Source of the DNA: Geothermobacter ehrlichii
Lineage (GTDB): Bacteria; Desulfobacterota; Desulfuromonadia; Desulfuromonadales; Geothermobacteraceae
NCBI RefSeq assembly: GCF_008124615.1
Contig: NZ_VNIB01000011.1
Coordinates: 1 to 64,000, forward strand
Direction: 5' to 3'
DNA length: 64,000 bases
Position 1 is the first letter of the stretch. Every line of letters begins with the position of its first letter. This document shows positions 46,422-60,713 of this stretch, one piece after another. The position numbers and the translations under genes were made by a program. The notes under the pieces are model-generated. The model was not told the origin of the DNA. It saw only the letters and a program-made list of their open reading frames with translations, and ran no database searches.

Positions 46422-47261
46422 TCAGGGGATGGCGACCGGGGCGGCAAGGGGTTCGACGATCAGGGCCCGTCCCAGGGCCGGGTCGCGGCGGCCGTCGAAC
46501 AGCTGCTCTTCCAGCCGCCCCCGGTCGATGGTCCCCCACCAGTTGCGGGGCAGAGGCACGTCCTGCCGCTGCTGCAGGCCGAACTTGACCTGGTAGGAGC
46601 GGCTGCCGACGATATTGTTGCGCTCGATGAGAATGCCCCCCCGGCTGCGGGTGACGACAAACAGGCCGATCTCGTTGTCGCTGATCTGGTTGTGGTGAAT
46701 CCGGCCGGTGGACCGCCGTTCCTCGAAACGCAGGCCGTGGCGGTTGTGGTGGATGCGGTTGCCGGACAGTTCGAGATTGACGGTTGAAAATCGCACGCCG
46801 TCGACGTTGAACCGGAATTCAGAGTCGGCAATGCGGGCCTTGCAGAAATGCACCTGCACGCCGCTGTAGGCGTACTCGGAGATGACGTGCCGCAGGCTGA
46901 CCCGCCGGGCGAAATCGCAGTAGAGATACTTCCAGTCGGCCGGTTGCGGCCGGCTGGCACCGCTGGTCAGCAGGATCGGCGCCTGCGCCGTGCCTTCGGC
47001 GACGATTTCACCCTCGACGTAGAGTTCGCTGTCGCCGATGCCGTCACCGTCCCGGTCGAGGGGCAGGAACACCACCCGGGTGCCAGGCAGGATGGTCAAT
47101 CGCCCCGACTTCTTCACCGTCACCACCCCGCGGATGCGGACCTCCCCCTGCCAGACGACATCGCCGGAAATGGCGGTGTCGGCCAGTTCGAGAACGGGCG
47201 CCGGCCGCCCGGCGCAACCGGCGAGCAAAAGGACAACGAGAATCCAAAGCAGTCGCCTCAT
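46422..47261 (-). CDS. Parallel beta-helix lipoprotein, cassette member 1
   Basis: 279 residues. Signal peptide ending in a lipobox (LLAGC). An N-terminal strand region (VVWQGEVRIRGVVTVKKSGRLTILPGTRV) leads into about six right-handed beta-helix coils with the repeated GNRIHHNRHGLRF, HNQISDNEIGLFV and ERNNIVGS pattern, and a short cap with NWWGTID. The same N-terminal and NWWG cap occur in the proteins at 48295 and 50691. Similar folds are found in NosD and surface carbohydrate enzymes; no catalytic residues are evident. The ATG at 47261 has GGAG; a GTG at 47267 overlaps the previous gene. Last gene of its operon. Confidence 0.85.
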   Translation of the reverse strand: MRRLLWILVVLLLAGCAGRPAPVLELADTAISGDVVWQGEVRIRGVVTVKKSGRLTILPGTRVVFLPLDRDGDGIGDSELYVEGEIVAEGTAQAPILLTSGASRPQPADWKYLYCDFARRVSLRHVISEYAYSGVQVHFCKARIADSEFRFNVDGVRFSTVNLELSGNRIHHNRHGLRFEERRSTGRIHHNQISDNEIGLFVVTRSRGGILIERNNIVGSRSYQVKFGLQQRQDVPLPRNWWGTIDRGRLEEQLFDGRRDPALGRALIVEPLAAPVAIP

Positions 47262-47263
47262 GC

Positions 47264-48298
47264 TCACTCCAGGCTGACCGGCTCGACCACGATACGCATA
47301 CCGCGTCGCACCTCGCCGGCGGCGATGGTCAGACCATGGTCGGCTGTCTCGTCGAACATGCCGAACAGTTCGCCGGGCGCCGGTGAATCGCCGTAACGCT
47401 GCCGGGCGCCGACATAGAAGGTTCCGCCGGCAGGAAGGTCCAGCCGAAACCGTCCGTCATCCCCTGTGGGCGGCGACAGGGCCGCCGGCCGTTGATGACC
47501 GATCACCCGGCTGGTATAGGCAAAGACATGGACGCCGGCGACCGGCCGGCCCTGGGCGTCGACCACCCGGCCCTCGACGCGCGTCTCGCTCGCCTCGCCA
47601 AACGTTTCGCGGCTGCCTTGCGAAGCCTGCTTCTCGACCAGTGGCAGCGCAACGGAAACCAGCTCGCCGGCGGCCAGATGCAGCGGATTGCCGGCAAAGA
47701 AGCCGATCCGGTCGCCGGTCCGCACCGGCCCGACCAGCTCGCCGTTGCTTCGCCAGCGCGCCACCAGGTAGTAGTCACTGTCCGGCAGACCGTCGAAGTA
47801 GAAACGGCCGTCGCTCCCCGTCGGCGGCGACATGCGGTAACCCTGCCCCTTGAGCCCCTCGGTGGTGTCGAGGTAGAGATGGACCACCGCCCCGGCCAGC
47901 GGACGGCCGCCAAAGGTCACCACGCCCTCCAGCCCGGCGCTGTAGGCGTCGTCGTAGTCCCGGCGGCGCACCTCGCCGACGGGAACGAGCTGCAGGCCGA
48001 TCCAGAGGTCGGAAGAGGCGAGCCGGACCGGGTTGCGCCCGCTGAAGGCAAAGCGCCGCCCGTCGGCGCTCTTTCCGAACAGGGCGTAGCGCCCCGGCGG
48101 CAGCTCGAGCCGGTAGAGACCATCCGGGTCGCTGATTGCCGTATTCACCGGCTCGCTGCCGGGATCGAGGTCGGCATGGGCGGCGACCCGCACCCCCGCC
48201 GCCGGCTCCTCACCGTCGACCACCCGGCCCTCGATCACCGCCGCCGACGCCGGCAGGGCGAGCAGACCGACCATCAGCATCGCCCAGAGCCACCTCAT
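47264..48298 (-). CDS. Exported CarboxypepD_reg (Ig-like) repeat protein, cassette member 1
   Basis: 344 residues. Signal peptide (about 1-19) then three prealbumin-like carboxypeptidase-regulatory domains: IEGRVVDGEEPAAGVRVAAH, LEGVVTFGGRPLAGAVVHLY and VEGRVVDAQGRPVAGVHVFA, each with DGRFRLDLPAG-type beta turns. The ending GTFYVGARQRYG to DHGLTIAAGEVRRGMRIVVEPV is shared with three other proteins of this locus. Such domains usually bind or display, and have no known chemistry. Start overlaps the beta-helix gene by a base or two. Confidence 0.85.
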   Translation of the reverse strand: MRWLWAMLMVGLLALPASAAVIEGRVVDGEEPAAGVRVAAHADLDPGSEPVNTAISDPDGLYRLELPPGRYALFGKSADGRRFAFSGRNPVRLASSDLWIGLQLVPVGEVRRRDYDDAYSAGLEGVVTFGGRPLAGAVVHLYLDTTEGLKGQGYRMSPPTGSDGRFYFDGLPDSDYYLVARWRSNGELVGPVRTGDRIGFFAGNPLHLAAGELVSVALPLVEKQASQGSRETFGEASETRVEGRVVDAQGRPVAGVHVFAYTSRVIGHQRPAALSPPTGDDGRFRLDLPAGGTFYVGARQRYGDSPAPGELFGMFDETADHGLTIAAGEVRRGMRIVVEPVSLE

Positions 48299-49668
48299 GG
48301 TCCGGCCTGCGGTCCGGCCTGGTCGACCGGCATCTGCAAAACGGGCGAGAACACTACCCGGTCAAGAGCATAGGCCTCGTCACCGAACCCCTCGTAGACC
48401 ACCGTCGGCTGGTCGTGACGGTCCCAAAAGAGCGGATCGTTGCTCTCTTCCGTGGCGGCGGCCAGTCGTTCGCTGTCTTTCCCCCACCAGTTGCCCGAGA
48501 CGTCGACCCGGTCGACAAACCGGGTCGGCGCCTGGGCCAGCAGTTCGTTGCGGCTTCCGCGGGCCCGCGCCTGCCGCATGACCAGCGCCCGGGAGCCGGA
48601 GCGTTTTTCCCAGTCGGCGCTCTGGTAGATGCCGAGCCGAACAGCCTCGCGGTTGTCGATGAAATTGTTGTTCCTGACCTGCGGATAGGACGAATAGTCG
48701 CAGAAGATGGCCAGTCCGTTCTGTTCGATCTGGTTGTTCTCCACCTGCGGGTTCGACTTGCGATAGTTGTAGATCGCGGTGTCGTTGCCGCGCAGCAGGT
48801 TGTGCTCGATCTGCGGCGAGCCGAACTGGTCGTTGCGGATGGCTGTGCCGTTGTCGACGAAGACGTTGTTCCGAATCAGCGGATAGGAAAAGGCGTAGTT
48901 GACCAGAGCCTTGCCGTTCTTCTCGAACCGGTTGCCAATGATCCGCGGCGTGTTGCGGGTCTGGTTGCAGAACAGGCCGACGTCGTTGCCGGTAAAAAGG
49001 TTGTTTTCGATCCGGTCGGGATAGGGCTGCTGCAGGGTGATGCCGCGGCCGTTGCCGACGAACCGGTTGCCGGTCACCGTACCGCGACTGCTGTGCGAGG
49101 CGAAGATGCCGGTCTCTCTGAGATTTTCGAAATGATTGTCGGCGATGGTCGGGCTCGACTTCATCTCCACCGCTACCCCGACCCGGCCGCCGACAAAGCG
49201 GTTTCCCCGGATCAGCGGCGGCGATTCCCGCAGCAGATGAACACCGAAATCGCAGTCGACAAATTCGCTGTCGACAACCTCGAAGTCGGAACCGTAGCTG
49301 CCAATTGCCTGGTTGGCGCCGCGAAACCGTGCCTGGCGGATCAGACTGCGGCCGGTCGTCTCCATCAGCTCGATCCCCTGCCAGCCGGCCGGCGCCTCGA
49401 ACACCACCGGCTCGTCGGCGCTCCCCTCGATCCGCAGCCGGCCGCGCACGGTCAGCTTGAAGGTCTTCTCCTTCACCCGCACCCGGGTACCGGCGACGAT
49501 GGTCAGGCTGGCGTCGGCCGGAACGATGACCGGACCGGTCAGGTCGACCTCGCCCTCCCAGCGGCTGTGGCCGAGCAGGGTCCCCGAGTAGCAGAGAGCC
49601 AGGGCCGGCCCCGCAAGCAGGACCAGCCACAATCCGAAAACGCTAGCGGGCAGAAACCGGCTGAACAT
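48295..49668 (-). CDS. Parallel beta-helix protein, cassette member 2
   Basis: 457 residues, signal peptide (about 1-24). Strand region WEGEVDLTGPVIVPADASLTIVAGTRV, then at least ten beta-helix coils (PLIRGNRFVGG, RIIGNRFEKNGKALVNY, PQVENNQIEQNGLAIFCDY, PQVRNNNFIDN), then the cap GNWWGKD and the tail DRVVFSPVLQMPV. Longest of the three helices in the locus. It overlaps the upstream cassette gene by 26 bases. Exported or surface-exposed; function unknown. Confidence 0.87.
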   Translation of the reverse strand: MFSRFLPASVFGLWLVLLAGPALALCYSGTLLGHSRWEGEVDLTGPVIVPADASLTIVAGTRVRVKEKTFKLTVRGRLRIEGSADEPVVFEAPAGWQGIELMETTGRSLIRQARFRGANQAIGSYGSDFEVVDSEFVDCDFGVHLLRESPPLIRGNRFVGGRVGVAVEMKSSPTIADNHFENLRETGIFASHSSRGTVTGNRFVGNGRGITLQQPYPDRIENNLFTGNDVGLFCNQTRNTPRIIGNRFEKNGKALVNYAFSYPLIRNNVFVDNGTAIRNDQFGSPQIEHNLLRGNDTAIYNYRKSNPQVENNQIEQNGLAIFCDYSSYPQVRNNNFIDNREAVRLGIYQSADWEKRSGSRALVMRQARARGSRNELLAQAPTRFVDRVDVSGNWWGKDSERLAAATEESNDPLFWDRHDQPTVVYEGFGDEAYALDRVVFSPVLQMPVDQAGPQAGP

Positions 49669-50680
49669 GAATGGTGATCTCCTCCACGACCTGGTCCTGT
49701 TTCAGGTCGATGCCGTGATCCGGGCTGCCGGCGTACTTGCCGTACAGCTCCCCGCCGGCGGCGGGACCGCCGAACGACTGGCGGGCCAGCAGGTACCAGC
49801 GGCCGGCCGGCAGCCTGAGCTGGAAACGGCCGACACTGTCGGTCGGCGGCGAAAAATGGGCCGGGGTACCGGTCATCTGCGGCTGCCGGTAGGCGAAGAC
49901 GTGCAGACCGGCCGCCGGCGCGCCGTCCGGCCCGACGACCCGGCCGCGGACACCGTGGAAGGGCAGTTCCTCCCCCTGCTCCAGGTTCGACAGCCGGGTG
50001 ATCGTCTCCAGCCGGATATGCCGCACCATGCCCGGTTCGATGCGTACCGGGTTGCCGTAGTAGTAGTTGAACCAGTCGCCGATGTTCACCGGCCCATATC
50101 GCCCGCCCTGCTGCCGCTTGCGCGCCAGCAGCCAGTACTCGCCCGGCGGCAGCCGCAGGCGGAAACGGCCCTTCTCCACCGGCACGATGTTGTAGGCCGG
50201 CCCCTTGAAGCCGGATTTCGTGTCCCGGTAGACGTAGAGGTAGACCTGCTCGAGAAGCTCGTCCTGGTAGGTGATCTCCCCTTCGATGCCCGAAACCCGC
50301 GCCCGTTTCGCCGGCCGCTCTTCCGGCACCCGGATCAGGTTGAAACCGACGTTGGTGAAATGACCGTCCACCACCTCCACCGGCGACCCGCTGTAATAGC
50401 AGAAGTAGTCGCCCGCCTGCGGCCGACCGGTGAAGGAGCGCGCCACCATGTAGTAGCGGCCGGGCGGCAGCGTGAGCTGCCAGGTGCCGTCGAGGGCGGT
50501 CGGCGTTGAGACCGCCACCGCCTCTCCGCCGGTGATGTCGGCGATCTGCCGGTAGGCGAAGATCCGCACCCCGGGGACCAGCTCGCCGCGCCAGGCGACC
50601 CGCCCCCTGGCTCCGGAGGCCGCCTGGGCCGCCGTCGCCGCCAGCAGCATAAGAATCGTCCAACAGACAAGTCTGCGCAT
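49643..50680 (-). CDS. Exported CarboxypepD_reg repeat protein, cassette member 2
   Basis: 345 residues, signal peptide (about 1-20). Three CarboxypepD_reg domains (ARGRVAWRGELVPGVRIFAY, IEGEITYQDELLEQVYLYVY, VRGRVVGPDGAPAAGLHVFAY), each with a PPGRYYMVAR-like or AGRWYLLAR strand. The last domain is nearly the same as in the other cassette proteins (SPPTDSVGRFQLRLPAGRWY to DHGIDLKQDQVVEEITIHV). ATG at 50680 has GAGGTGGAG upstream. Confidence 0.85.
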   Translation of the reverse strand: MRRLVCWTILMLLAATAAQAASGARGRVAWRGELVPGVRIFAYRQIADITGGEAVAVSTPTALDGTWQLTLPPGRYYMVARSFTGRPQAGDYFCYYSGSPVEVVDGHFTNVGFNLIRVPEERPAKRARVSGIEGEITYQDELLEQVYLYVYRDTKSGFKGPAYNIVPVEKGRFRLRLPPGEYWLLARKRQQGGRYGPVNIGDWFNYYYGNPVRIEPGMVRHIRLETITRLSNLEQGEELPFHGVRGRVVGPDGAPAAGLHVFAYRQPQMTGTPAHFSPPTDSVGRFQLRLPAGRWYLLARQSFGGPAAGGELYGKYAGSPDHGIDLKQDQVVEEITIHVQPVSAR

Positions 50681-50690
50681 CAGCTCCACC

Positions 50691-51875
50691 TCATGGGAAA
50701 ACGATCGCTTTTTTCGCCCAGGGAGCGAAACGGACCCGATCGAGAGGCCAGTCGCGCCCACCCTCCTCGAAGGTCGGCCGGTCACGGCCGTCGTCGATGA
50801 AATCGGGATTGCCGCCGGCTCCCAGCCGTTCGAGTTGCCGGGTCGCCCGCTCGCCCCACCAGTTGTCGCGGGCGTCGATCCAGCCGTCGCGGTTGCGGGC
50901 CCGGCGGTCACTTTCGGCCACCTGCCGCGCCGGGCGGCTGCCGAAGGCGCCGTGCGCCGTCTCCTGCCGGCGGGCGGTGCTCCCCTTCTCCCGCTCCCAG
51001 ACGATCGACTGGTACTCGAGACGCACGGCCACGCCGTTGCCGGAAAGGTCGTTGCCGCGCAGCCGTGGATAGCTCGAGTAGGCGATCAGCACCCCGGTGC
51101 CGTTGCCGCTGATCCGGTTGCCCTCGACCAGCGGGTCCGAGCGGCGGAAGCAGCGGATGCCGACGTCGTTGTCGCGGATATCATTGCGCCGCAGCACCGG
51201 CCTGGCGGCACGGTCGATCAGGACGCCCACCTCGTTGTCGGTCAGGCAGTTCTCCTCCAGCAGCGGATCGGAACCGAAATGGCTGACCATCAGTCCGGTC
51301 GGATGCCCGCTGAACCGGTTACCGCTGAACCGGCGCGGCCGCGAGCGGAAGATGTAGGCGCCGAAGCGGCCGTTGTTCTCGAAACGGTTGTCGACCACCG
51401 CCGCCGTCGAGCCGTCCTTGATCATCAGGCCGACCCGGCTGTTGCCGGCGAAGAGGCAGCCGCTGATGGTGGCCTCGGTCTTGCGGCGCAGCTCGATTCC
51501 GATGCGGTTGTCGCGCAGCTCGAGCCCCTCAAGCCGGGGCGCGCCGCTCTCGACGGTGACGGCAGTCATGGCGCCGCTCAGCCGGCAGTTGGCCAGCAGG
51601 GAGTCGCTCCCCAGTCCCTTGAGGACCAGCCCGGTCCAGCCCTTGCCGGCGAACTGCGCCCCGCGGGCCAGAATCCGCCCGGAAACGGTCAGGCCGCCGC
51701 GCCCGAAACGGATGCGGCTGCCCGGCTCGATCCGCAGGGTCACGCCGGCCGGCACCGTCACCGGCTCGTTCAGCACCAGCTCGCCGCGCCAGACGGTGTC
51801 CGTCTCAAGCACCAGGGCCCGGGCCGGTACGGCCCAGCCGCAGATGAACAGCACCACCAGCAGGCAGACTCTCAC
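50691..51875 (-). CDS. Parallel beta-helix protein, cassette member 3
   Basis: About 394 residues, hydrophobic N terminus (VRVCLLVVLFICGWAVPARA). WRGELVLNEPVTVPAGVTLR is followed by beta-helix coils (RLEGLELRDNRIGIEL, PVLRRNDIRDNDVGIRC, PLVEGNRISGNGTGVLI), a basic linker (about 320-350) and the cap DNWWGERATRQLE with the tail PLDRVRFAPW. The start is GTG at 51875, overlapping the upstream stop as GTGA, with GGGAGG before it. Confidence 0.85.
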   Translation of the reverse strand: MRVCLLVVLFICGWAVPARALVLETDTVWRGELVLNEPVTVPAGVTLRIEPGSRIRFGRGGLTVSGRILARGAQFAGKGWTGLVLKGLGSDSLLANCRLSGAMTAVTVESGAPRLEGLELRDNRIGIELRRKTEATISGCLFAGNSRVGLMIKDGSTAAVVDNRFENNGRFGAYIFRSRPRRFSGNRFSGHPTGLMVSHFGSDPLLEENCLTDNEVGVLIDRAARPVLRRNDIRDNDVGIRCFRRSDPLVEGNRISGNGTGVLIAYSSYPRLRGNDLSGNGVAVRLEYQSIVWEREKGSTARRQETAHGAFGSRPARQVAESDRRARNRDGWIDARDNWWGERATRQLERLGAGGNPDFIDDGRDRPTFEEGGRDWPLDRVRFAPWAKKAIVFP

Positions 51876-52933
51876 CAGACCTCCCTGACCCGTATGGTTC
51901 CCAGTTCCTCGACCTGCCCGGTCTCGACAACCGCGTGATGATCGGCCGTACCGTCCCAGGTTCCGACCCATTCGCCGGGCTCCAGCGGCCCGCCGTAGGC
52001 GCTGCGGGCGCCGAGATAGTAGGTGCCGCCGGTGGCCAGATTGAGCCGGAAGCGGCCGTCCGGGCCGGTGGGGTCGGAAATGTGCACCGGCTTGCCGACC
52101 ATGCGGCTGTCGAGATAGGCGAAGATATAGATGCCGGGCACCGGCCGGTCCTCGGCATCGACCACCCGCCCGGTCAGGGCGGTGCCGCTGTCGGCGAACC
52201 GGCCTTCTTTCCGCTTTTGCCGGTAGCGCACGGGATCGACCGGCCGCACCGTCAGTGTTCCGACATTCAGCCGCTGGCCCGTCTTCAGCTCGACCGGCCC
52301 CAGGGTGCCGGTCAGATCTCCCGGTTTCAGCTCTCCCAGGCGCGAACCGTCGGCCCGACGGCGGGCCGCCAGCCAGAAGGTGCCGGACGGCAGGTCGATG
52401 GCGAAGTTCCCGGCATCGTCGGTTTCGACCACGGCGCCGTAGGAAGGGCCGACCAGGTCGACGGCGTCGTCGGTATAGACATAGACGAAGGCGCCGGCGA
52501 CGCCGTCCCCGTCGTGCACCACCCGGCCGCTGAGGCCGGTACCGGGTTCGGGAACCAGCCGGCCGTCCCGTCCCATCTCGCGAAGGGCAAAGGGCGCCAC
52601 CTCAAGCATTCCTTTTTCGACCTGCACCGGGTTGGCCGGGCATTCGGCCATCAGCATCACCGGCCGGCCATCAATGCTGCTCTGCCGCTTCTTGCCGATG
52701 ATGAAGTAGCGGCCGGGCGGCAGCTCGAGCCGGTAGCGTCCCTCGCCGTCGGTCGAGGCGACGGCGAAGGGCTGAACCGAACGGTCCTTTTCCGCCTTGA
52801 GATAGATCTCGACACTTGCGTCGGCCAGCGGTTCGCTCCCGTAAAGCAGCACGCCGGAAAGGCCGGTCGGTCCCGACCGCTCGCAGGCGGCGACAAGCGC
52901 CAGAATTGGCAGAAAAAGAAGCAGTCGACGCAT
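51872..52933 (-). CDS. CarboxypepD_reg lipoprotein, cassette member 3
   Basis: 353 residues. Signal peptide ends in VAAC, so it is lipid-anchored. Three CarboxypepD_reg domains (LSGVLLYGSEPLADASVEIY, LSGRVVHDGDGVAGAFVYVY, LTGRVVDAEDRPVPGIYIFAY). The final domain ends GTYYLGARSAYG then TADHHAVVETGQVEELGTIRV, like its paralogues. ATG at 52933 with GAGG upstream. Nine bases after the membrane protein stop. Confidence 0.86.
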   Translation of the reverse strand: MRRLLLFLPILALVAACERSGPTGLSGVLLYGSEPLADASVEIYLKAEKDRSVQPFAVASTDGEGRYRLELPPGRYFIIGKKRQSSIDGRPVMLMAECPANPVQVEKGMLEVAPFALREMGRDGRLVPEPGTGLSGRVVHDGDGVAGAFVYVYTDDAVDLVGPSYGAVVETDDAGNFAIDLPSGTFWLAARRRADGSRLGELKPGDLTGTLGPVELKTGQRLNVGTLTVRPVDPVRYRQKRKEGRFADSGTALTGRVVDAEDRPVPGIYIFAYLDSRMVGKPVHISDPTGPDGRFRLNLATGGTYYLGARSAYGGPLEPGEWVGTWDGTADHHAVVETGQVEELGTIRVREVW

Positions 52934-52941: not shown

Positions 52942-55365
52942 TCAAAGTCCGCCGCTCCGCAGGCGCAGCACCGGCGAAAGCGCCAGCAGGTAGACCAGTC
53001 CGCCCGCCAGCAGGGTCAGGGTATAGCCCCAGTTCATGGCCACTACCACCGCCAGCAGGGAACCGAGCACGCCGGTGGCGCCGTTGACTCCCCAGCTCCA
53101 GGCCAGGTCGCGGCCGTCCGGATGCAGCAGGCGCATGCCCAGCGGCAGCGGCATGCCGAGCAGCAGGCCCAGGGGCGCCAGCAGGCCGGCGGCCAGCAGG
53201 CAGCGCAGCGCCAGGGGCTGATCGAGCAGGGCGTCGAGCAGCGGCGGCAGACCGTAGTTGCAGAACTGGGAAAGCAAGACCAGTACCAACAGCAGCGGCG
53301 GCAGCCAGCGTCCCTCGCGGCCGGCGGCTATCTTCCCGGCCAGCAGCGAACCGAGACCGGAAAAGACCAGCAGGCTGAAGAGAATCACCGCCAGCGCGTA
53401 GATCGGCTGTCCGAGAAAGAGAATGAAACGGCGCAACAGGCCGATTTCGAGCAGCATGAAACCAAGACCAAGGCAGGCGAAATAGAGCAGGCGCCACCCG
53501 CTGCCAGCACGGCCAAGCTCGCACCGGCGGAAAAGGAGCAGGGGCAGGATCAGGCAGACGAAGGTCAAGGCGCCCACCACCAGCAGCAAGTTGCGCAGGA
53601 TCAGCACCGCCCGGTCCTCGAAACGGCTCTGCGCCGGAAAGGTGAACAGGGTGAGAAAATCGGCCGGCTTGTACATGTAGTAGAAAAACGGCCGGTCGTC
53701 AGTGGTCGGGGTGACGTCGAACGGAAATTCGTCATAGAAGGTCCCCGAGGCGTAGCCGGCCACCAGGCGGTGAAAGGGATCGCTCCCCTGCCGCCGGTCG
53801 GGCATCAGCACCTCCTGAAAGGCCAGTCGCGCCGTCATCGTCCGCAGCCGTGCCAGCTCGTCCGGCGTGAACGGCGACTTCTTGAGCATGAAGTTGGCCA
53901 GTCCCCGCTCCTTGATGACGACGATGTGGGACGCCGGGTCGGCAACGCCCTGCCGCTCGAGGAAGGCCAGCCCCAGCGAGACCAGGCGCAGGGTCTCCCG
54001 CTCGAAGATGAAGCGGGAGATGGAGAGGATGCCGTTCGGCCGCAGATGCTCCCAGTAGTCGCGAAAGGCCTCCAGGGTGTAGAGGTTGTTCTCCGACAGG
54101 GTGAAGGCCCCGGCCGAGGGCGCCATGCGTCCGAACACCGCCGAGGCCTGGATCACGTCCCACCGCCTGTTCTGCCGGCGGATCCAGCTGCGCCCCTCGT
54201 CGACGGCCAGCTCGACATCGGGACGCCGGTAGAGCGCGCCGGTAAAGGCGGCGAAACGCTCGTTGACCGCCTCGGCCACCAGCGGATTGATTTCCAGCGC
54301 CGTCACCCTCTGTGCGCCGCTGGCCAGGGCGGCAAGCACGTCCTTGCCGCCGCCGGGCCCGATCACCAGTCCGACCGGCGCTTCCTTCAGCCGCCAGGCC
54401 AGGGCAATGACGTTGTCGCGAAAATAGCCAAGCCCCTCCTCGCCCGGCCAGCGGTAGAGGGTGGTGTAGCCGGTGTCGTCGACCACCATGCCGAGCTGCT
54501 GCGGTATCGGCCCCCGGTAGGTGCGCGAAAGCCCCCAGGCCTGGCGCAACTCCTCGCCGCGCGAGGGATAGACGGCGACGCGGGAGAAGGAATTCCAGGC
54601 GCTCCAGAGCAGTCCCGGTTCGTAGCGGCCGCGCACGAAACGGATGCCGGCGAAATCGAAAGCCAGGTTGCCGGCCAGAAGGGCGACCAGCAGCAGCGCC
54701 GCCAGCAGCGGCCTCAGCCACCGCCTGCGGCCGTCTCCGAAACAGGCTGCCGCCGCCAGTCCGGCCTGGGCCACAAGCAGCAGACCGCCGACGCCGCCGA
54801 CCAGTTCGAGAACGCCGATCACCGCCAGGCAGCCGAGCCCGGCTCCCAGCAGGTCCCAGCTGTAGAGCCGGCCGATCTGCCGCAGATGGCGACGCAAAAG
54901 CAGGGTGACAGCCAGGCCGGCAAAAAAGAACGGCAGCGCCGTCACCAGGTAGAGACCGGCCAGAACCGGCAGCAGGGAGAGCGGCACCCCCTTGTTGTAG
55001 AACCCCTGCTGGAAAGGCTGGTAGAAGGGCTGATGGAAGAAGGAGAGCACCCGAAAGCCGAACTGCGGCCAGTAGCGGAAGAGGACGAAAACGCCGAAAA
55101 AGAGGACCAGCGACAGGACGAACCCCCAGCAGCACCGGCGACAGATGTCGCCGGTGCGTTCCGCCGGAAACCGGCCGGGTCGCAGCTGAACCAGCATGGC
55201 GGCGACGGCGAAACCGAACAGGGCCAGGCTGATGGCCATGGAGGCAAAATGGTACCACATCAGCACCGAGAAGATCCGGGTCAGGATCAGCTCGTACATC
55301 AGACCGGCCAGGGAGATGGCGAACATGCCGTAGCAGGTGCGGCGATCGAGGGATGCGGAAACCAT
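52942..55365 (-). CDS. Polytopic membrane protein with spermidine-synthase-like domain
   Basis: About 807 residues. Six to eight helices in the first third (about 10-250), a Rossmann-like domain in the middle with the SAM-type loop VIGPGGGKDVLAAL and ALEINPLVAEAVNERF (about 340-560), and another set of helices at the end (about 600-800). The middle resembles spermidine synthase, but whether it transfers an aminopropyl group is unknown; such fusions often sit with exported redox or surface proteins. The ATG at 55365 has no strong site. It is the first gene of the minus arm and divergent from the haem lipoprotein at 55691. Confidence 0.8.
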   Translation of the reverse strand: MVSASLDRRTCYGMFAISLAGLMYELILTRIFSVLMWYHFASMAISLALFGFAVAAMLVQLRPGRFPAERTGDICRRCCWGFVLSLVLFFGVFVLFRYWPQFGFRVLSFFHQPFYQPFQQGFYNKGVPLSLLPVLAGLYLVTALPFFFAGLAVTLLLRRHLRQIGRLYSWDLLGAGLGCLAVIGVLELVGGVGGLLLVAQAGLAAAACFGDGRRRWLRPLLAALLLVALLAGNLAFDFAGIRFVRGRYEPGLLWSAWNSFSRVAVYPSRGEELRQAWGLSRTYRGPIPQQLGMVVDDTGYTTLYRWPGEEGLGYFRDNVIALAWRLKEAPVGLVIGPGGGKDVLAALASGAQRVTALEINPLVAEAVNERFAAFTGALYRRPDVELAVDEGRSWIRRQNRRWDVIQASAVFGRMAPSAGAFTLSENNLYTLEAFRDYWEHLRPNGILSISRFIFERETLRLVSLGLAFLERQGVADPASHIVVIKERGLANFMLKKSPFTPDELARLRTMTARLAFQEVLMPDRRQGSDPFHRLVAGYASGTFYDEFPFDVTPTTDDRPFFYYMYKPADFLTLFTFPAQSRFEDRAVLILRNLLLVVGALTFVCLILPLLLFRRCELGRAGSGWRLLYFACLGLGFMLLEIGLLRRFILFLGQPIYALAVILFSLLVFSGLGSLLAGKIAAGREGRWLPPLLLVLVLLSQFCNYGLPPLLDALLDQPLALRCLLAAGLLAPLGLLLGMPLPLGMRLLHPDGRDLAWSWGVNGATGVLGSLLAVVVAMNWGYTLTLLAGGLVYLLALSPVLRLRSGGL

Positions 55366-55502
55366 AACCCATTGGAGCGAGCAAGTCCCGTGCCGGCCGC
55401 CGGGTCCCGCCCGGTTGCGAATCCGCCGCCAGCAACGGTCCGTCCCCGTCATTTATTTGCCGGGGCACGAAAGGCAACGGCGAAAATATGCCACGCGGTG
55501 CG

Positions 55503-55535
55503 GGTGACAGATGACGAGTGACAGGTGACGAAGCG
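55503..55535 (+). repeat. Partial TGACGAG-type repeat
   Basis: TGACAGATGACGAGTGACAG then GTGACGAAG, a seven-base-period stretch like the left arm at 3591, in the divergent promoter region. No clear right arm. Confidence 0.5.
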
Positions 55536-55690
55536 TTCGGGGGGGGGCCTGGGCGGCGTCCTGCGGACGATTCTCGCTTCGCGGGTCCCGAATCACAGCC
55601 ATCGACCGACCTTTCCGGACAGGCGTTTCCTGTTTCGCGTTTCCCGCTTTGCCTCCGCCTCGGTACGTGATTTGCATTTCAAGCCCGGTT

Positions 55691-56776
55691 GTGAATCGCA
55701 TCCGCCGCCCCCAAATCCACGTCAAATACGCCAGGCTGCCCGGCGTCCTGCTTCTGCTGGCCGTTGTCGGCATATCTGCCCTCTTCGGCGGCTGCCGGCA
55801 GCCGGAAGCGGACCGACTCTACGCCCTGTACCTGGAGCACCCTCCCACCGAAGCCGACTGGCAACGGGCACTGCCACACCGGGTCGAGGTCCGCGGCGGC
55901 CGGGTGCACAAGGTCGAGGTCTTTCCCGACATCGACAAGGACACTGTCCACACCTCGACACCGTCCTGCCACCACGGCGGCACCATCCCCCGGCCGCTGC
56001 CCGTGGAGATGAAGGCCTTCTACACCGACCGCGATCTCTTTCTGCGGCTGCGCTGGCGCGATCTGACCCGCGACGATGCCATGAACCGCTGGACCTTCGA
56101 CGGCACAAAGTGGGTCAACAACGGCGCCCTCGAGGACGGCTTCGGCATGCTCTGGCGACCGGACGAAGAGAGCCGCCCCTTCACCTGCAGCCTCGCCTGC
56201 CACATCGAGGACTTCGGCGTCGCCGGCTCGACCTTTCACGCCACCAACCACATGAAACTCGAACGCCCCGGCCCCTGGTACGACCTGTGGAACTGGAAGG
56301 CCGACCGCACCGGTCGCCTGGGTTTCGCCGACGACCGCTGGCTCGACCACAAAGGGATGCACGGCGACCTGCCGGGCGAACTGCACCGCCCCAACTCGAT
56401 GCGGGCCGAGGCGGGGGAAAAACCCTTTGGTCCCGACGACCAGCCGATTTATGATGGCAAGGGTCGCCGAATCGACGGCAGCTTCCGGCCTGCAGGAAGC
56501 CAGGCTCCAGGCTGGCTGACCGAACGGCCGTCGGGACGTCGGGCCGACATCCGGGCCGTTGCCATTCGCGACGGGGACTTCTGGGTGGTCACCCTGCGCC
56601 GGGCCCTCGACACCGGCGATCCGCACGACATCGTCTTTTCACCGGCAGCGCGCAACGGCTTCGCCTTCGGCCTGTCGGTCATGGACCATACCCTCGACGA
56701 ACATTACGCATCCCGCGCCGAAGAACGGCTGGTGCTGCTGCCCGCCGCGGCCGGCGATGTCAGGCAACCGGAGTGA
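55691..56776 (+). CDS. Ethylbenzene-dehydrogenase-type haem-domain lipoprotein
   Basis: About 361 residues. A signal segment ends in FGGC, suggesting lipid anchoring. The rest matches the EB_dh (ethylbenzene dehydrogenase gamma-like) haem-binding domain: FYTDRDLFLRLRWRDLTRDD, WVNNGALEDGFGMLW, and the C-terminal WVVTLRRALDTGD to FAFGLSVMDH. In relatives it holds b haem. Two Cys-His spots are notable: PSCHHGG near 90-96 and CSLACH (spacing C-x3-CH) near 170. Start uncertain: GTG at 55691 fits the lipoprotein, but GTG at 55667 or TTG at 55649 cannot be excluded and no good ribosome-binding site is seen. Confidence 0.75.
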   Translation: MNRIRRPQIHVKYARLPGVLLLLAVVGISALFGGCRQPEADRLYALYLEHPPTEADWQRALPHRVEVRGGRVHKVEVFPDIDKDTVHTSTPSCHHGGTIPRPLPVEMKAFYTDRDLFLRLRWRDLTRDDAMNRWTFDGTKWVNNGALEDGFGMLWRPDEESRPFTCSLACHIEDFGVAGSTFHATNHMKLERPGPWYDLWNWKADRTGRLGFADDRWLDHKGMHGDLPGELHRPNSMRAEAGEKPFGPDDQPIYDGKGRRIDGSFRPAGSQAPGWLTERPSGRRADIRAVAIRDGDFWVVTLRRALDTGDPHDIVFSPAARNGFAFGLSVMDHTLDEHYASRAEERLVLLPAAAGDVRQPE

Positions 56777-56782
56777 ATCGCC

Positions 56783-57523
56783 ATGAAAAGGTTTCTGCCG
56801 CTTCTTCTCGCCTGTCTCTTTCTGCTTCCCCTCGGCTGCCAGCAGGAACAGCCGCAGACCGAAAAGCCGGACCTGGTCAAGGTCAGCGGCCGGGTCATGG
56901 TCCCCCTCGAGGGCGCCTACATCTACATCTACCAGAAGGGGATGGACCTCTACGGACCGGCGATGACGGTCTCCAAGCCGACCGACGCCGAGGGACGGTT
57001 CGAGCTTTCCCTGCCCCCCGGCGAATACATCGCCGTCGCCCGCAAGCGCAAGAACGGCGAAATGGCCGGCCCGGTACTGGCCGGCGACAACAAGAGTGAA
57101 TTCATCAATCTTGACCTCGAGGCACAGCCGGTACAGCTGACGGTGGTGGCCCCGGTCAAGGTCGGCGATGAGCGCCGCCTGAGCACCACCCTGCCGGCCG
57201 GCAAGACCGGGCTTTCCGGCACCATAAGGGACGCCGAGGGCAAACCGGTGGCAGGCGCCAGGGTGCACGTCTACGACCACGTGCAGATGTCGGAACGCCC
57301 CAAGTTCGTTTCCGAGAAGACCGGTCCCGACGGTCGCTATCTGATCTACCTGCCCAAGGGCGGCACCTACTACCTGGCGGCACGGGACAAGTTCGGCGGC
57401 CCGCCGCAGATCGGCGATCTCTACGGCCGCTACGACCAGGGAACCATCGAGCCTTCGGCGGTGGTGGTCAAGGATGGTGAAATTCTCGAAAACATCGACA
57501 TCACGGTGACCAAGGTATGGTAA
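56783..57523 (+). CDS. CarboxypepD_reg lipoprotein on the plus arm
   Basis: 246 residues. Lipobox LPLGC. Two CarboxypepD_reg domains: VSGRVMVPLEGAYIYIYQKG and LSGTIRDAEGKPVAGARVHVY. The last domain (DGRYLIYLPKGGTYYLAARDKFGG to YDQGTIEPSAVVVKDGE) is a close match to those of the minus-arm cassettes, so the two arms share a protein family. GGAG precedes the ATG. Overlaps the HEAT gene by seven bases. Confidence 0.87.
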   Translation: MKRFLPLLLACLFLLPLGCQQEQPQTEKPDLVKVSGRVMVPLEGAYIYIYQKGMDLYGPAMTVSKPTDAEGRFELSLPPGEYIAVARKRKNGEMAGPVLAGDNKSEFINLDLEAQPVQLTVVAPVKVGDERRLSTTLPAGKTGLSGTIRDAEGKPVAGARVHVYDHVQMSERPKFVSEKTGPDGRYLIYLPKGGTYYLAARDKFGGPPQIGDLYGRYDQGTIEPSAVVVKDGEILENIDITVTKVW

Positions 57524-58446
57524 CGACCGGCAAGCGCTTCCCGTTCCGGACGGTCTGGCCGCTTCTTCTGCTCGGCCTGATGCTGTTCGCCGGCTGCGGC
57601 CAGGAGCCGGCTCTCGACCTGCCGGCGCTGGAAAACGCCGCCAGGGCAGGCGACGCCAGGGCCGTCAGCCAGCTCGTCTCCCTGCTCGGCCGCAGGGAAA
57701 ACGGCGTCAACGACCGGGTCTATCCGGTGGTCGTCGCCCTCGGCCGGGAGGCGGTTCCGGCTCTGAGCGGCCAGCTCGACACCAGCGATCCGGTTCTGCG
57801 CGAATACACCATCGCCGCCCTTGGCACCCTGCGGGCGAAAGAGGCGGTGGACGGGATTCGCGCCACCCTCAAGGATAGGGCCTTCGGCCGCCGCTACATC
57901 GCCGCCTGGGCCCTGGGCCAGATCGGCGATCCGGCAACCATCCCCGCCCTGATCGAAGCGCTGGACGACGCGAACGAAACGGTACGCCGCTACGCCACCC
58001 GCGCCCTGATTCGCTTCGACCGCAAGGCGGTCCCGCCCCTGGTGCAGGCCCTGCCCGCCGCCACCTCCCGGGCCGCCGGCTACATCATCCGCGCTCTGGG
58101 TGATATCGGTGATCCGCGCGCCGTCGACAGCCTGTTGCGTGCCGTCGACGGCCCCAATCGCGGCCTCGCCTTCCAGGCGCTGGGCAAGCTCAAGGAGCGA
58201 CGGGCCGAGCAGGCCCTGATCGACGGCCTGAACGACAGCGACTGGCGAACACGGATGCAGGCGGCCATGGCCCTCGGGCCGCTGGGCGGTCCGGCCGCCG
58301 CCGAGGCCCTGCAACCGCTGCTCGACGATCCCGAGGTGGTGGTCCGGGAATGGGCGGCCCGTTCGCTGGAAATGATAACCGGCCGGCATGTCCGCTACCG
58401 CGACGCCAGAGGAGAACTGGTGATGCCCTACAACATCTATCACTGA
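57517..58446 (+). CDS. HEAT-repeat lipoprotein
   Basis: 309 residues. Lipobox LFAGC, then about six HEAT (PBS-lyase-type) repeats: VPALSGQLDTSDPVLREYTIAAL, YIAAWALGQIGDPATIPALIEAL, YIIRALGDIGDPRAVDSLL and others. HEAT rods usually hold other proteins together. Start overlaps the previous gene. In the periplasm or at the outer membrane it could scaffold the neighbours. Confidence 0.88.
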   Translation: MVTTGKRFPFRTVWPLLLLGLMLFAGCGQEPALDLPALENAARAGDARAVSQLVSLLGRRENGVNDRVYPVVVALGREAVPALSGQLDTSDPVLREYTIAALGTLRAKEAVDGIRATLKDRAFGRRYIAAWALGQIGDPATIPALIEALDDANETVRRYATRALIRFDRKAVPPLVQALPAATSRAAGYIIRALGDIGDPRAVDSLLRAVDGPNRGLAFQALGKLKERRAEQALIDGLNDSDWRTRMQAAMALGPLGGPAAAEALQPLLDDPEVVVREWAARSLEMITGRHVRYRDARGELVMPYNIYH

Positions 58447-58497: not shown

Positions 58498-60000
58498 ATG
58501 CTTTCCAATCTTTTCGATATCCCGCTGCTCGGCCGGCTGCTCCGCGCGCGCTGGTTCTGGCGGCTGCTGCGGCTGGTCGCCCTGGTCCTGCTGCTGGCGA
58601 TGATCGCCTGGGGCTGGCACCAGCACGCCATTCCCGGCGTCAGCACCCCCGATCCGCTGATGTACACCAACATCACCAACCACCTGTTCTGGGTCTGGTG
58701 GATCATGGGCGTGGTCTTCGTCGCCCTGCTGCTCGGCCGCTTCTGGTGCGCCGTCTGCCCCCTCGGCTGGCTCAACGGCATCTTCGCCCGCCTCGGCCTG
58801 CGGCGGGAGCTGCCCGGCTGGCTGAACAACTACCTGCCGGTCACCCTGGCCCTGGTCGCCCTGCAGGTCGCCATCTACCTGCAGGCCACCCATCGCTACC
58901 CCGACCTGACGGCACGCCTGCTGGCGCTGACGGTGGTGCTGGCCATCGTCTGCGGCCTGGTCTTCCGGCCGCGTGCCTTCTGCCGGCTGCTCTGCCCGGC
59001 CGGCGCCGTTTTCGGTCTCTACGCCCGGGTGGCTCCCTTCGAGCTGCGCACCCGCAACGACGGAACCTGCCCCTCCTGCAAGGGTCGGTTCTGCGTCAGC
59101 GGCGGCAGCTTCTGGCAACGCTTCAGCCTCGGCCGGATGGTCCTCTACTGGCATGCCCGCCGCGACGACTGCCCGATGGACCTGGTACCGGACGAGATCC
59201 GCGACAGCCGCGACTGCACCTACTGCCTGCACTGCGTCAACAACTGTCCGAGCAACAGCATCCGGCTCGGCTTCCGCCGCTGGATGGCCGACATCGGCAA
59301 AGCGCCGCTGCCCGCCGACGAGGCCTTCTTCCTGGTCGTGCTCTTCGGCCTGCTGACCGCCAACTTCAGCAAGGTCTACGTCGATCTGCGCCAGGCCCTC
59401 CTCTGGCCGCCGCAGCAGGCCGCCCTGCTGCTTGGCTGGGGCGGCGACGGCTTCAATCTGCTGGCGGCCGTCTGGGTGGCCCTGCTGCTGCCGCTGCTGC
59501 TGTTGCTGCCGGCCTGGGCCATCTGGCGGCTGAGCGAGACCCGCGTGCAGGCGGGTGACGGGCTGCAGCCACAGCGCCCCGACACCCCGCCCTCGTCCGG
59601 GCCCGGTTTCTGGCACCGGCTCGGCTGGCTGACCCTGCCTCTGATTCCGCTGCTGCTGGCGGTGCACCTGGTCCTGGCGCTGGTGAAGATCAACGCCAAG
59701 GCCGGCTATCTACCCTTCGCGCTGCGCGACCCGTCCGGGGTGAAGAGTTTTCTGGCCATCAACGTGATGCAGACCATGAACCCGCCCGGCCTGCTGCTGC
59801 CGCTCGACCTGCTGAAGTGGCTCGTCCTGCTGGCCCTGGCCGGCGGCATCGCCGCCTCGCTCCACGCCGTCCGCCGCTGCCGCAGACAACTGCCGGCGGA
59901 ACATTCGGAGGCTGGCTACACCCTCGCCGCCCTGACCGCCCTGCTCGTCCCGGCAGGCCTCTACATCGCAACGGTGATCCGATGGCTCTTCATCCGCTGA
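58498..60000 (+). CDS. Membrane polyferredoxin (NapH/NosR/CcoG-like)
   Basis: 500 residues with about seven membrane helices. Cysteine pairs near the first helices (FWCAVCPLGW and CRLLCPAG) are the conserved NapH/NosR-type motifs, followed by a ferredoxin-type loop with CPSCKGRFC and CTYCLHCVNNCP in the middle. Such proteins pass electrons from the quinone pool or cytoplasm to periplasmic partners. No FMN domain as in NosR is seen. The haem lipoprotein at 55691 is a possible acceptor. Last 19 bases overlap the next gene. Confidence 0.87.
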   Translation: MLSNLFDIPLLGRLLRARWFWRLLRLVALVLLLAMIAWGWHQHAIPGVSTPDPLMYTNITNHLFWVWWIMGVVFVALLLGRFWCAVCPLGWLNGIFARLGLRRELPGWLNNYLPVTLALVALQVAIYLQATHRYPDLTARLLALTVVLAIVCGLVFRPRAFCRLLCPAGAVFGLYARVAPFELRTRNDGTCPSCKGRFCVSGGSFWQRFSLGRMVLYWHARRDDCPMDLVPDEIRDSRDCTYCLHCVNNCPSNSIRLGFRRWMADIGKAPLPADEAFFLVVLFGLLTANFSKVYVDLRQALLWPPQQAALLLGWGGDGFNLLAAVWVALLLPLLLLLPAWAIWRLSETRVQAGDGLQPQRPDTPPSSGPGFWHRLGWLTLPLIPLLLAVHLVLALVKINAKAGYLPFALRDPSGVKSFLAINVMQTMNPPGLLLPLDLLKWLVLLALAGGIAASLHAVRRCRRQLPAEHSEAGYTLAALTALLVPAGLYIATVIRWLFIR

Positions 60001-60713
60001 CCCGACCGCTTGTCCCGCTGCTGTTTCTGCTCCTTGTCGCCTGCAACCAGCAAACGGCCGAACCGGTCGAACCGGCCGCGGCAACCGGCGGTGACAGCCC
60101 CCCGAGGACCGAATCGGCAACCGAAGCCGAACAGCCATCCCGGCCGAAGCCGCCGGCGCCGCCACTGTTCGAAGACTTCGAGGGGCAACCGCGCATCTCC
60201 CTCTTTCCCCGCGCCGGGCAGGTGCGCCCGGACGAGAAGGATGAACTCTTCCCCTTCTGGCTCACCTACCTCGACCACCTGCGTCGCATCACCGGCGTCC
60301 TTCAGCTCGAAACCGACCAAGGCAGCAACCGGGTGTTCGCCTTCCGCGGCCTGAAGAACGTCGATTCCGTCGGCTACTTCTCCCCCATGGCCGTCGAGCC
60401 CGACACCAGCTACCGGGTAAGTGTCCGCATCCGCACCGACCTGCCGCCCCAGAGCTGGGCAGGCATCGGCATCCAGGAGTTCGACCGCTTCCTCTGGATT
60501 CCTGACCAGTTCGACAGCAAGCTCAAAAAAGAGCATCTGCTGGCCAGCCACGTCGGCTTCTCCCTGAACGGACGCAACGGCTGGGGCCGGCGGCAATTCA
60601 CCTTCACCACCGGTCCGAAAACCCGGATGATTCACCTGATCCTCTTCATCGACGGCCAGACGGATCGCAAGCCGGTGCTGTTCGACGACCTGACAATCGA
60701 ACCGGTCGAGTGA
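59982..60713 (+). CDS. Lipoprotein with carbohydrate-binding-like beta-sandwich
   Basis: 243 residues. Lipobox LVAC, then a proline- and glutamate-rich linker (about 25-60) and a beta-sandwich resembling galactose-binding-type modules (NRVFAFRGLKNVDSVGYFSP, DTSYRVSVRIRTDLP, RMIHLILFIDGQTDRKPVLFDD). No enzyme motif. It overlaps the polyferredoxin gene by 19 bases and ends the plus arm. Confidence 0.7.
   Translation: MALHPLTRPLVPLLFLLLVACNQQTAEPVEPAAATGGDSPPRTESATEAEQPSRPKPPAPPLFEDFEGQPRISLFPRAGQVRPDEKDELFPFWLTYLDHLRRITGVLQLETDQGSNRVFAFRGLKNVDSVGYFSPMAVEPDTSYRVSVRIRTDLPPQSWAGIGIQEFDRFLWIPDQFDSKLKKEHLLASHVGFSLNGRNGWGRRQFTFTTGPKTRMIHLILFIDGQTDRKPVLFDDLTIEPVE

Follow-up and report, generated by a model that had tools for sequence, protein, structure and literature searches.

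A divergent twelve-gene envelope locus of Geothermobacter ehrlichii, apparently part of a larger gene set with redox proteins and an orphan radical-SAM enzyme

Closest described systems

The described systems with which this envelope locus can be compared are GeoRSP, the maturation of nitrous oxide reductase (Nos), the gamma subunits of type II DMSO reductases (EbdC, NxrC), and the bilin-lyase-type HEAT proteins (CpcE/CpcF). GeoRSP consists of three NCBIfam models (TIGR04302, TIGR04303, and TIGR04304), and we know of no tested function for it; its role or substrate was not found described in literature text searches. The assembly of nitrous oxide reductase employs NosD and NapG/H-type ferredoxins.

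The window, which is the whole analysed stretch of 64,000 nucleotides, carries the locus at positions 46422-60713, with genes m1-m7 on the minus strand and p1-p5 on the plus strand. Below, p1-p4 are called the core, m7 is called SPE, and the CarboxypepD_reg and beta-helix proteins are abbreviated CPD and BH. PqqD and radical SAM members of GeoRSP were found over their cut-offs in the window genome, whereas the EB_dh, CPD, HEAT, polyferredoxin, BH, and SPE genes lie outside the named trio. The initial annotation had been unable to match the locus to a described system. This still stands for the envelope gene set, of which literature text searches found no description, but it has to be qualified, as the partners of the locus include the NCBIfam-named GeoRSP trio.

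As for Nos maturation, the BH proteins of the window match Pfam NosD, and a second polyferredoxin encoded elsewhere in the genome matches NapH and NapG models. However, the NosD, NapG, and NapH subfamily models scanned all remained far below cut-off: m5 reached 53.7 bits against TIGR04247 (cut-off 300), p4 reached 30.8 and 30.6 bits against two NapH models (cut-offs 234 and 213), and the two halves of the second polyferredoxin reached 101 bits for NapG and 80-83 bits for NapH. NosZ, searched by TIGR04246 as the sole NosZ model, was found in 0 of 33 core genomes and in 1 of 194 genomes overall, so the nos system proper was ruled out by the model used.

The gamma subunits of type II DMSO reductases resemble p1 in both the EB_dh domain (Pfam, 73.4 bits, cut-off 33.3) and the fold. 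A structure model of p1, built with 20 sequences and with a mean pLDDT of 74, matched NxrC (7b04_C, E 3e-10) and EbdC (2ivf_C, E 2.9e-8) in Foldseek. Unlike these subunits, p1 is an apparent lipoprotein, its score against the gamma subunit model TIGR03477 is 19.6 bits (under the cut-off of 169.85), and Pfam detected no molybdopterin family in the 20 window proteins scanned. Model loops 85-98, with the CHHG motif, and 169-186, from the CxxxCH motif onward, have pLDDT below 50, and therefore haem geometry is not claimed. Similarly, p3 shares PBS-lyase HEAT repeats with CpcE/CpcF, but its scores of 75.6 and 69.3 fall short of the respective cut-offs, 330 and 220, and it is an apparent lipoprotein.

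Gene content and conservation of the two arms

All 12 genes are open over their called coordinates and have coding-like codon composition. The initial annotation had described seven minus and five plus genes, divergent, nearly all touching or overlapping, and all with export or membrane signals, and each of these features was confirmed. Genes m1-m7 overlap or lie at most 10 bp apart, and p1-p5 overlap or lie 6-51 bp apart. A hydrophobic N-terminal segment exists in 12 of 12 genes (best 19-residue mean hydropathy 1.57-2.29), and by a crude threshold m7 (14 segments) and p4 (9 segments) are polytopic. The strict lipobox pattern was matched in m1, m6, p2, and p5. The p2 match is located at residue 11, although Cys19 appears the likelier lipidation site; p1 and p3 have a Cys behind a hydrophobic stretch with a less canonical box.

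In the minus arm, m1 (46422-47261) is a NosD-like BH lipoprotein (Pfam Beta_helix 3.7e-8, NosD 1.1e-6; lipobox LAGC), m3 (48295-49668) is a NosD-like BH protein (NosD 3.8e-33), and m5 (50691-51875) is a BH protein (Beta_helix 9.6e-28). The CPD proteins are m2 (47264-48298; Pfam 6.7e-21 over 3 stretches) and m4 (49643-50680; 3e-15), both with signal peptides, and the lipoprotein m6 (51872-52933; 1.6e-17; lipobox VAAC). Because m2, m4, m6, and p2 are paralogous, as are m1, m3, and m5, the minus arm can be regarded as three CPD/BH pairs. The arm is headed by m7 (52942-55365), a polytopic membrane protein with a spermidine-synthase-like domain. No Pfam family was found in it by the Pfam scan, and its middle (positions 314-451) matches the PDB spermidine synthase 1inl (E 1e-6).

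In the plus arm, p1 (55691-56776) is an EB_dh-domain lipoprotein (Pfam 3.6e-20), with CHHG and CxxxCH motifs invariant across 20 sequences. In-frame TGA codons seen in two relatives during the search raised the idea of selenocysteine in p1; it was dropped, as the frames used for those loci, L042 and L051, are uninterrupted by stops over 355 and 336 residues. The CPD lipoprotein p2 (56783-57523; Pfam 1.8e-13) bears a conserved YDHVQMSERPK signature and has a mean column identity of 70% in an alignment of 19 sequences. It is followed by p3 (57517-58446), a HEAT-repeat lipoprotein with PBS-lyase-like repeats (HEAT_2 2.3e-38, HEAT_PBS 6.8e-29), and p4 (58498-60000), a polytopic NapH-like polyferredoxin (Fer4_5 2e-8) with cysteines invariant across 20 sequences; no solved structure was matched by the polyferredoxin alignment. 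The last gene, p5 (59982-60713), encodes a lineage-restricted lipoprotein outside the conserved core. It matched no family in the Pfam and subfamily model scans, and a relative with 49% identity adjoins the core in only two of 32 loci (L033 and L034). A 50% match to p5 was also seen near a giant-cytochrome gene in L218. Adjoining the locus on the minus strand, an FG-GAP/ASPIC beta-propeller protein (61146-62603; Pfam FG-GAP_3 5.1e-69) has relatives adjoining SPE or the core at 64-84% identity and is probably a member of the system.

Conservation was examined in 194 genomes drawn from the class, 98 of them in the window's order. The order p1-p4 is kept in 29 of 32 relatives' loci, including L062, where p4 is split over two frames, and the remaining 3 are interrupted by contig ends. 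The block is therefore conserved in many genomes, the outcome that the initial annotation had named as support for a system. SPE was found in 33 of the 194 genomes (best piece of the orthologue at least 61% identical), and 32 of these carriers belong to the 33 core genomes. Within the order, 32 genomes have both core and SPE, 1 has the core only, and 1 has SPE only (Fisher p 1.6e-23, uncorrected for relatedness). Chance clustering was ruled out by the kept core order together with the matching presence of SPE. The two arms are co-inherited, as the test named in the initial annotation required, although they are adjacent in only 9 of 33 genomes, the window included. Core and SPE block are neighbours in the window's genus, a sister genus, and two other families, and Geothermobacter hydrogeniphilus HR-1 has the same arrangement as the window. 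Where the SPE block is separate from the core (10 loci, including the coreless G181), its order is SPE-CPD-BH-CPD-BH-CPD-BH in every case, with the m1 orthologue coming after the other SPE-block genes. We infer that a rearrangement, in either direction, joined the core and SPE pieces.

In the reading of the initial annotation, the locus would be an electron conduit, in which quinol electrons would pass through the polyferredoxin and the EB_dh haem lipoprotein to the cell surface, the other proteins serving as scaffold. The polyferredoxin, the EB_dh protein, and two further lipoproteins occur together in those 29 loci, the Cys/His motifs of p1 are invariant, and Desulfuromonadia are rich in extracellular electron transfer. 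We consider this conduit unlikely. Linkage, promoters, or co-occurrence connect the locus with PqqD, radical SAM, YedE, a cysteine desulfurase, and unpaired substrate-binding proteins of three kinds, none of which a conduit requires. The closest solved relatives of p1 are molybdoenzyme subunits, with no molybdopterin family among the 20 window proteins scanned, and no outer-membrane porin was noticed in the loci that were read.

Partner loci and promoter-like sites

The core heads an operon with GeoRSP radical-SAM genes and YedE in 19 of 33 core genomes, lying upstream at a distance of 9.0-10.2 kb from p1 to the radical SAM gene. The GeoRSP radical SAM protein exists in all 33 core genomes (29 over cut-off and 4 partial matches) and in 11 of 12 genomes reached via p2, one of the 12 being the G008 genome. 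Within the window's order, 4 genomes have GeoRSP without the core. GeoRSP is also common in the remaining families of the class, f20-f23, which we guess to be Geobacterales, but none of the 33 EB_dh orthologues is found there.

The window locus itself is located outside the GeoRSP operon, and its tie to GeoRSP consists of co-occurrence, the operons of relatives, and promoter-like sites. GeoRSP PqqD and radical SAM genes occupy about 147.7-149.0 kb of contig C2, where YedE and PhnD-like genes also lie; the order there is NtrC-CFG-BH-BH-PhnD-TPR-YedE-PqqD-rSAM-SPASM-CysDes-small lipoprotein. The radical SAM protein (L164:6487-7491) scores 459 bits against the TIGR04303 cut-off of 400, and PqqD (L164:6180-6494) scores 102.4 bits against the TIGR04302 cut-off of 100, which PqqD of one relative misses at 95.1 bits. 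The SPASM protein, at its expected position, reaches 79.6 bits, under the TIGR04304 cut-off of 300. A third locus of the window genome reads AAA-(FmdE-like)-permease-CPD-BH/PQQ-DUF3467-CVG-DUF362-polyferredoxin. FmdE-like, SCO-like, NHL, and ABC ATPase are tentative labels given on reading the sequences, and the FmdE-like query matched no family.

In the loci examined, a separate SPE block is part of a second operon, together with a permease, DUF362, and the NapG/NapH-like polyferredoxin. The GeoRSP locus and the third locus of the window genome are thus the remainders of these two operons. In distant loci, the pieces are also combined in other ways. The core stands tail to tail with the SPE block in L105, and p2-p3-p4 stands tail to tail with the second polyferredoxin, DUF362, and BH/CPD genes in L128. 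PhnD-TPR-YedE-CysDes is followed by AAA, CPD, FG-GAP, and BH genes and DUF362 in L117 and L122, and DUF362, the second polyferredoxin, ResB, and NtrC precede the core in L104. The second polyferredoxin, found in 120 of 194 genomes, is distributed more widely than the system, and its membership is therefore looser. Genes outside the window were called by codon usage, with wrong-strand calls in the GC-rich loci L108, L113, L138, L145, L153, and L157; re-reading covered L138 (as L164) and, by tblastn, L153 and L157. Of 63 named loci, 26 were annotated. The 63 share several contigs with the genomes of the numbered set, so that the two sets are not independent.

Part of the partner genes would fit the uptake, sensing, or detoxification of a sulfur or selenium oxyanion or a metal, with binding lipoproteins and a YedE/ArsP-type permease handling the substrate and the polyferredoxin and EB_dh protein reducing it. 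In the window genome, YedE scores 403 bits against a putative selenium transporter model (cut-off 200) and a cysteine desulfurase family is matched at 417 bits (cut-off 377). With a model for putative selenate binding, the PhnD-like protein reaches 62 bits, under the cut-off of 250, and the permease matches SaoE- and Cu/Zn-type efflux models, all under cut-off. Such a role would leave the many structural BH/CPD pairs unexplained, no terminal reductase or ABC permease was noticed beside the binding proteins, and we regard it as quite improbable.

The gap between the arms contains two outward-facing sigma-54-like sites, CGGCACGGGACTTGCT before m7 (55380-55395, minus strand) and CGGTACGTGATTTGCA before p1 (55661-55676, plus strand), each departing from the consensus at its first base alone. 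Both sites end 14 bp ahead of the called starts of m7 and p1, and the true starts may therefore be a little further downstream, for m7 by about 39 bp. Between the sites, direct TGACAG half-sites at 55505 and 55519 (55505-55524, plus strand) form a candidate shared enhancer, and at least two such half-sites were present in 0.12% of 5000 Markov sequences. The palindrome TGACAGN4CTGTCA is absent from the window gap (best match 5 mismatches). With at most 2 mismatches it occurs upstream of p1 in 14 of 32 relatives, compared to 3 of 232 unlabelled genes, and it was found also before FG-GAP genes (4/14) and a BH gene (3/27).

Sigma-54-like sites were found upstream of p1 in 30 of 32 cases, a number that is partly fitted because the pattern was picked after the p1 upstream regions had been viewed. 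Fairer test genes are AAA (4/4), CFG (5/25, all five of them where the core is missing upstream), and SPE (5 of 16 cases scanned, all five of them in loci sharing the window arrangement), compared to 1 of 314 unlabelled genes. Inner genes had such sites in GGDEF (2/21), PqqD (2/24), PhnD (2/29), and once each under four other labels. The scan took in L134, L136, and L137. In the window genome, searched with the first base relaxed to fit both window sites, sigma-54-like sites lie ahead of both arms and of both remainder loci elsewhere.

The same genome raises the question of giant multihaem cytochromes. In a dedicated factory for CxxxxCH/CxxCH cytochromes, electrons would maintain the apocytochrome cysteines in the reduced state, haem attachment would be aided by ResB-like and HEAT proteins, and the BH/CPD proteins would hold the chain as it is exported. 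Of the 16 TIGR01904 matches in the window genome, 15 lie about 6.6-18 kb past the locus, where giant cytochrome genes are called at about 2,700 aa (57 CxxCH) and 2,258 aa (19 CxxCH). In G010 (7/7), G012 (6/6), and G021 (13/13), all matches lie to either side of p1, no more than about 25 kb away. ResB-like genes are close by in G010 and G021, and G021 has CPD genes there as well. Within the order, at least 3 matches were found in 26 of 33 genomes with the core vs 6 of 65 without. The putative giant-cytochrome operon of the window genome is also preceded by a sigma-54-like site, about 90 bp ahead of its first gene. However, this operon carries its own sensor and NtrC-type regulator, and the linked cases are confined to two families (the window's and three genomes of one other). 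Giant cytochromes are unlinked to the core in G006, G008, G018, G027, G029, and G039, three of the 33 core genomes are without any TIGR01904 match, and 5 of 12 distant genomes, three of which come from records titled chromosome, have none over cut-off. Genes with at least 5 CxxCH occur in 4 of 23 GeoRSP regions of f20-f23 vs 4 of 20 control regions, taken at five fixed positions in each of four genomes. A general link was not upheld given the six unlinked core genomes, the likeness of the f20-f23 GeoRSP regions to controls, and the genomes with the system that lack such cytochromes, and the factory appears doubtful. Separately, the initial promoter scan found no site directly at the giant cytochrome genes.

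Proposed role of the system

The linkage of core, SPE, and GeoRSP, their co-inheritance, and the sigma-54-like sites indicate that the window locus is one module of a large shared system. By its sequence features, it is two sigma-54-type operons back to back, predicted modules of that envelope system, and the locus, GeoRSP, and the partner loci very probably constitute one system.

For its function, an envelope redox-cofactor maturation line is tentatively preferred, at less than even confidence. The system would mature an envelope redox protein. The PqqD/radical-SAM/SPASM unit would make or modify a peptide or cofactor, and sulfur or selenium would be handled by YedE and the cysteine desulfurase. 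Electrons of the membrane quinol pool would reach the periplasm through the polyferredoxins, the EB_dh lipoprotein would relay them via haem, and the BH, CPD, and HEAT proteins would grip the client during cofactor insertion. This would follow the logic of nitrous oxide reductase assembly with another client, perhaps a conserved FG-GAP or PQQ-type propeller protein; the Pfam NosD beta-helices and the NapG/NapH matches of the second polyferredoxin hint in this direction. A more specific version, to which we give little credence, is a sigma-54 regulon of about 30 genes in which a novel radical-SAM-derived redox cofactor, perhaps with sulfur or selenium, would be made and installed in envelope beta-propeller or BH proteins. 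Such a regulon, with a dedicated polyferredoxin electron supply, would represent a new kind of extracytoplasmic redox cofactor pathway.

The 12-gene block is very probably part of a much larger, apparently undescribed set of envelope genes, which recur together, share promoter-like sites, and include redox proteins and an orphan radical-SAM enzyme. The organisms concerned include iron- and sulfur-reducing bacteria, in which the assembly of envelope redox proteins is a central open problem. The tie of GeoRSP to strongly conserved envelope redox and scaffold proteins would place this trio in the cell and narrow its candidate clients to a short list.

A divergent locus with a conserved core

The initial annotation described seven minus-strand and five plus-strand genes transcribed divergently, and all of these genes, their families and their export signals were checked and found present. 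Outward from the centre, the minus arm consists of a polytopic membrane protein that carries a spermidine-synthase-like domain (SPE, m7; 52942-55365), a CarboxypepD_reg (CPD) protein (m6), a beta-helix protein (m5), a further CPD protein (m4), beta-helix protein (m3) and CPD protein (m2), and an outermost beta-helix lipoprotein (m1; 46422-47261). The plus arm runs from an EB_dh lipoprotein (p1; 55691-56776) through a CPD lipoprotein (p2), a HEAT lipoprotein (p3) and a NapH-like polyferredoxin (p4), which together form the core, to a last lipoprotein (p5) ending at 60713. Because the CPD proteins m2, m4, m6 and p2 are mutual paralogues, as are the beta-helix proteins m1, m3 and m5, the minus arm can be read as three CPD/beta-helix pairs behind SPE. 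By structure comparison the fold of p1 is similar to NxrC and EbdC; the motif loops of the p1 model are poorly predicted. A second, distant EB_dh protein of the same genome (G000:C5:46401-47018; L001, L065) shares 27% identity with p1 in the aligned part, and no other window-locus gene was matched in its surrounding 20 kb.

Among 194 genomes of the class, p1 has matches in 35, of which 33, the window genome included, are clear orthologues at at least 49% identity. The neighbourhoods of the 32 other orthologues and of two weaker cases were extracted. As the initial annotation had envisaged for a genuine system, a conserved block is seen in many genomes: the order p1-p2-p3-p4 and strand are kept in 29 of the 32 loci, and the remaining three (L047, L049, L053) end at contig edges and agree as far as readable. 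SPE has an orthologue at at least 61% in 33 of the 194 genomes and some match in 51, the others being distant. Core and SPE occur together in 32 genomes, with the core alone in G161 (86% complete) and SPE alone in G181 (79% complete), giving a Fisher p of 1.6e-23, uncorrected for kinship, among the 98 genomes of the order. The two arms are inherited together, but they adjoin (ARRANGEMENTS) in only 9 of 33 genomes, namely the window's genus, its sister genus, and families f3 and f8.

Two operons in relatives

The radical SAM gene of GeoRSP, an NCBIfam-named trio of PqqD, radical SAM and SPASM protein, lies 9.0-10.2 kb from p1 in 19 of the 33 genomes; in 4 more the contig stops before this distance, and in G173 the core is separate from both SPE and the GeoRSP partners. 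The long operon, read whole in two genomes (G053, G027) and partially in others, comprises GGDEF and NtrC regulators, p1-p4, a small CFGPKL protein, two beta-helix proteins, a PhnD-like binding protein, a TPR protein, YedE, PqqD, radical SAM/SPASM, SPASM, cysteine desulfurase and a small lipoprotein. Of the trio in G053, radical SAM alone exceeds the NCBIfam cut-off.

Where the SPE block is apart from the core, a second operon is observed: AAA ATPase, FmdE-like protein, ArsP_1 permease, FG-GAP protein, CPD, beta-helix/PQQ propeller and SPE, followed by three CPD/beta-helix pairs with DUF3467, an OpuAC-like binding protein, DUF362 and a NapH/NapG-like polyferredoxin. Single members are absent or beyond reach in some loci; SPE and its three alternating CPD/beta-helix pairs keep their order in 10/10. 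Since the window genome keeps the remainders of both operons, a GeoRSP operon without p1-p4 on contig C2 and a second operon without the SPE block on C14, the window locus unites pieces of the two.

An FG-GAP/ASPIC propeller protein (61146-62603, minus), which in relatives is part of the SPE operon, is among the best-conserved neighbours (64-84% identity) and is a possible client of the system. DUF362 and the NapH/NapG-like polyferredoxin also occur in genomes without the core (L209, L210, L211), suggesting that the function of the two may extend beyond this system; the polyferredoxin is found in 120 of 194 genomes.

Shared promoter-like sites

A sigma-54-like pattern (TGGYAYN5TTGCW, at most one mismatch, GG and GC fixed) is present upstream of p1 in 30/32 cases and of AAA in 4/4, compared to 1/314 unlabelled genes. 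As the pattern was picked after viewing the p1 regions, a less biased test comes from the other genes. It precedes CFG in 5/25 cases, all with no core upstream, and SPE in 5/16, all in joined-type loci; inner genes rarely have it (GGDEF 2/21, PqqD 2/24, PhnD 2/29, FG-GAP 1/15, m6 1/16, bBH1 1/27, p4 1/30). Both window arms carry a site, at 55380-55395 (minus) and 55661-55676 (plus), both starting with C where the pattern has T. The form YGGYAYN5TTGCW has 40 matches in the whole window genome versus 15 for a reversed control, and four of the 40 precede the system's four transcription units: both window arms, C2:142690 (CFG) and C14:82094 (AAA). Additionally, a palindrome, TGACAGN4CTGTCA (at most two mismatches), lies upstream of p1 in 14/32 cases versus 3/232 unlabelled genes; FG-GAP (4/14), CFG (3/25) and bBH2 (3/27) are further genes preceded by it. 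The palindrome is absent from the window's inter-arm gap, where two direct TGACAG half-sites are found instead.

Wider spread and possible function

By record titles, p2 relatives occupy 63 loci in Desulfuromonadales, Deltaproteobacteria, Deferrisomatales, Nitrospirae, one Desantisbacteria genome and unclassified bacteria, mostly in metagenome assemblies; part of these loci are the same contigs as in the 194-genome set. Annotation was available for 26, two of them miscalled (L108, L113). Thirteen of the 26 have p1-p4 in a row, in six of these the stretch also includes PqqD and radical SAM, and the pieces are joined in other ways in L104 and L105 (both among the 13), L117, L122 and L128. The GeoRSP radical SAM was found in 11 of 12 p2-relative genomes tested, G008 being one of the 12, with 8 over the cut-off. 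Within the order it is found in 33/33 core genomes (4 partial matches) and in 4 genomes without the core.

In families f20-f23, 12 of 13 GeoRSP operons read (L142, L144, L165, L167, L170-L172, L175, L178, L179, L182, L183; exception L143) contain, in place of the EB_dh core, CPD, long beta-helix, binding-protein and ResB-like genes, which NicO or permease genes often accompany. These operons are a sister version of the system.

A rival, less favoured explanation ties the system to giant CxxxxCH/CxxCH multihaem cytochromes. Of 16 cytochrome-model matches in the window genome, 15 lie directly beyond the window, within genes whose called lengths are about 2,700 aa (57 CxxCH) and 2,258 aa (19 CxxCH); three f3 genomes have giant cytochrome genes to either side of p1, and at least three model matches occur in 26/33 genomes with the core versus 6/65 without. 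However, these genes are unlinked to p1 in six other core genomes, several genomes carry the system without such cytochromes, and the GeoRSP surroundings in f20-f23 have no cytochrome excess (4/23 versus 4/20 controls). The two giant genes (G000:C11:65088-80251; L158, L216), the longer with 9 TIGR01904 stretches, are preceded by a protein with four CxxCH motifs and one of 967 aa, and are served by a separate sensor, NtrC-type regulator and sigma-54-like site. Within the window, 18060-18830 (plus) encodes a protein of 256 aa that contains nine CxxCH motifs.

Judged by the NosZ model searched, which matched none of the 33 core genomes, the locus does not belong to the nos system. The initial annotation could match it to no described system, and literature searches judged by title or abstract, with most subscription papers outside coverage, likewise gave no description of this gene set and nothing relevant on GeoRSP. 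Elsewhere in the window, a minus-strand cluster (35418-41444) of NosL, a small lipoprotein, a MacB/FtsX-like permease, an ABC ATPase, a membrane protein, an SCO-like protein and a protein with one CxxCH (Pfam identifies NosL and MacB; ATPase and SCO were recognised by reading translations) resembles a gene group for copper handling or cytochrome maturation.

Taken together, the comparisons show a single gene set that is inherited as a whole, shares promoter-like sites and includes an orphan radical SAM unit. If the assembly of nitrous oxide reductase is a guide, this system may mature an envelope redox protein: the polyferredoxins would supply the electrons, the EB_dh protein would relay them via haem, and the beta-helix, CPD and HEAT proteins would serve as holders.
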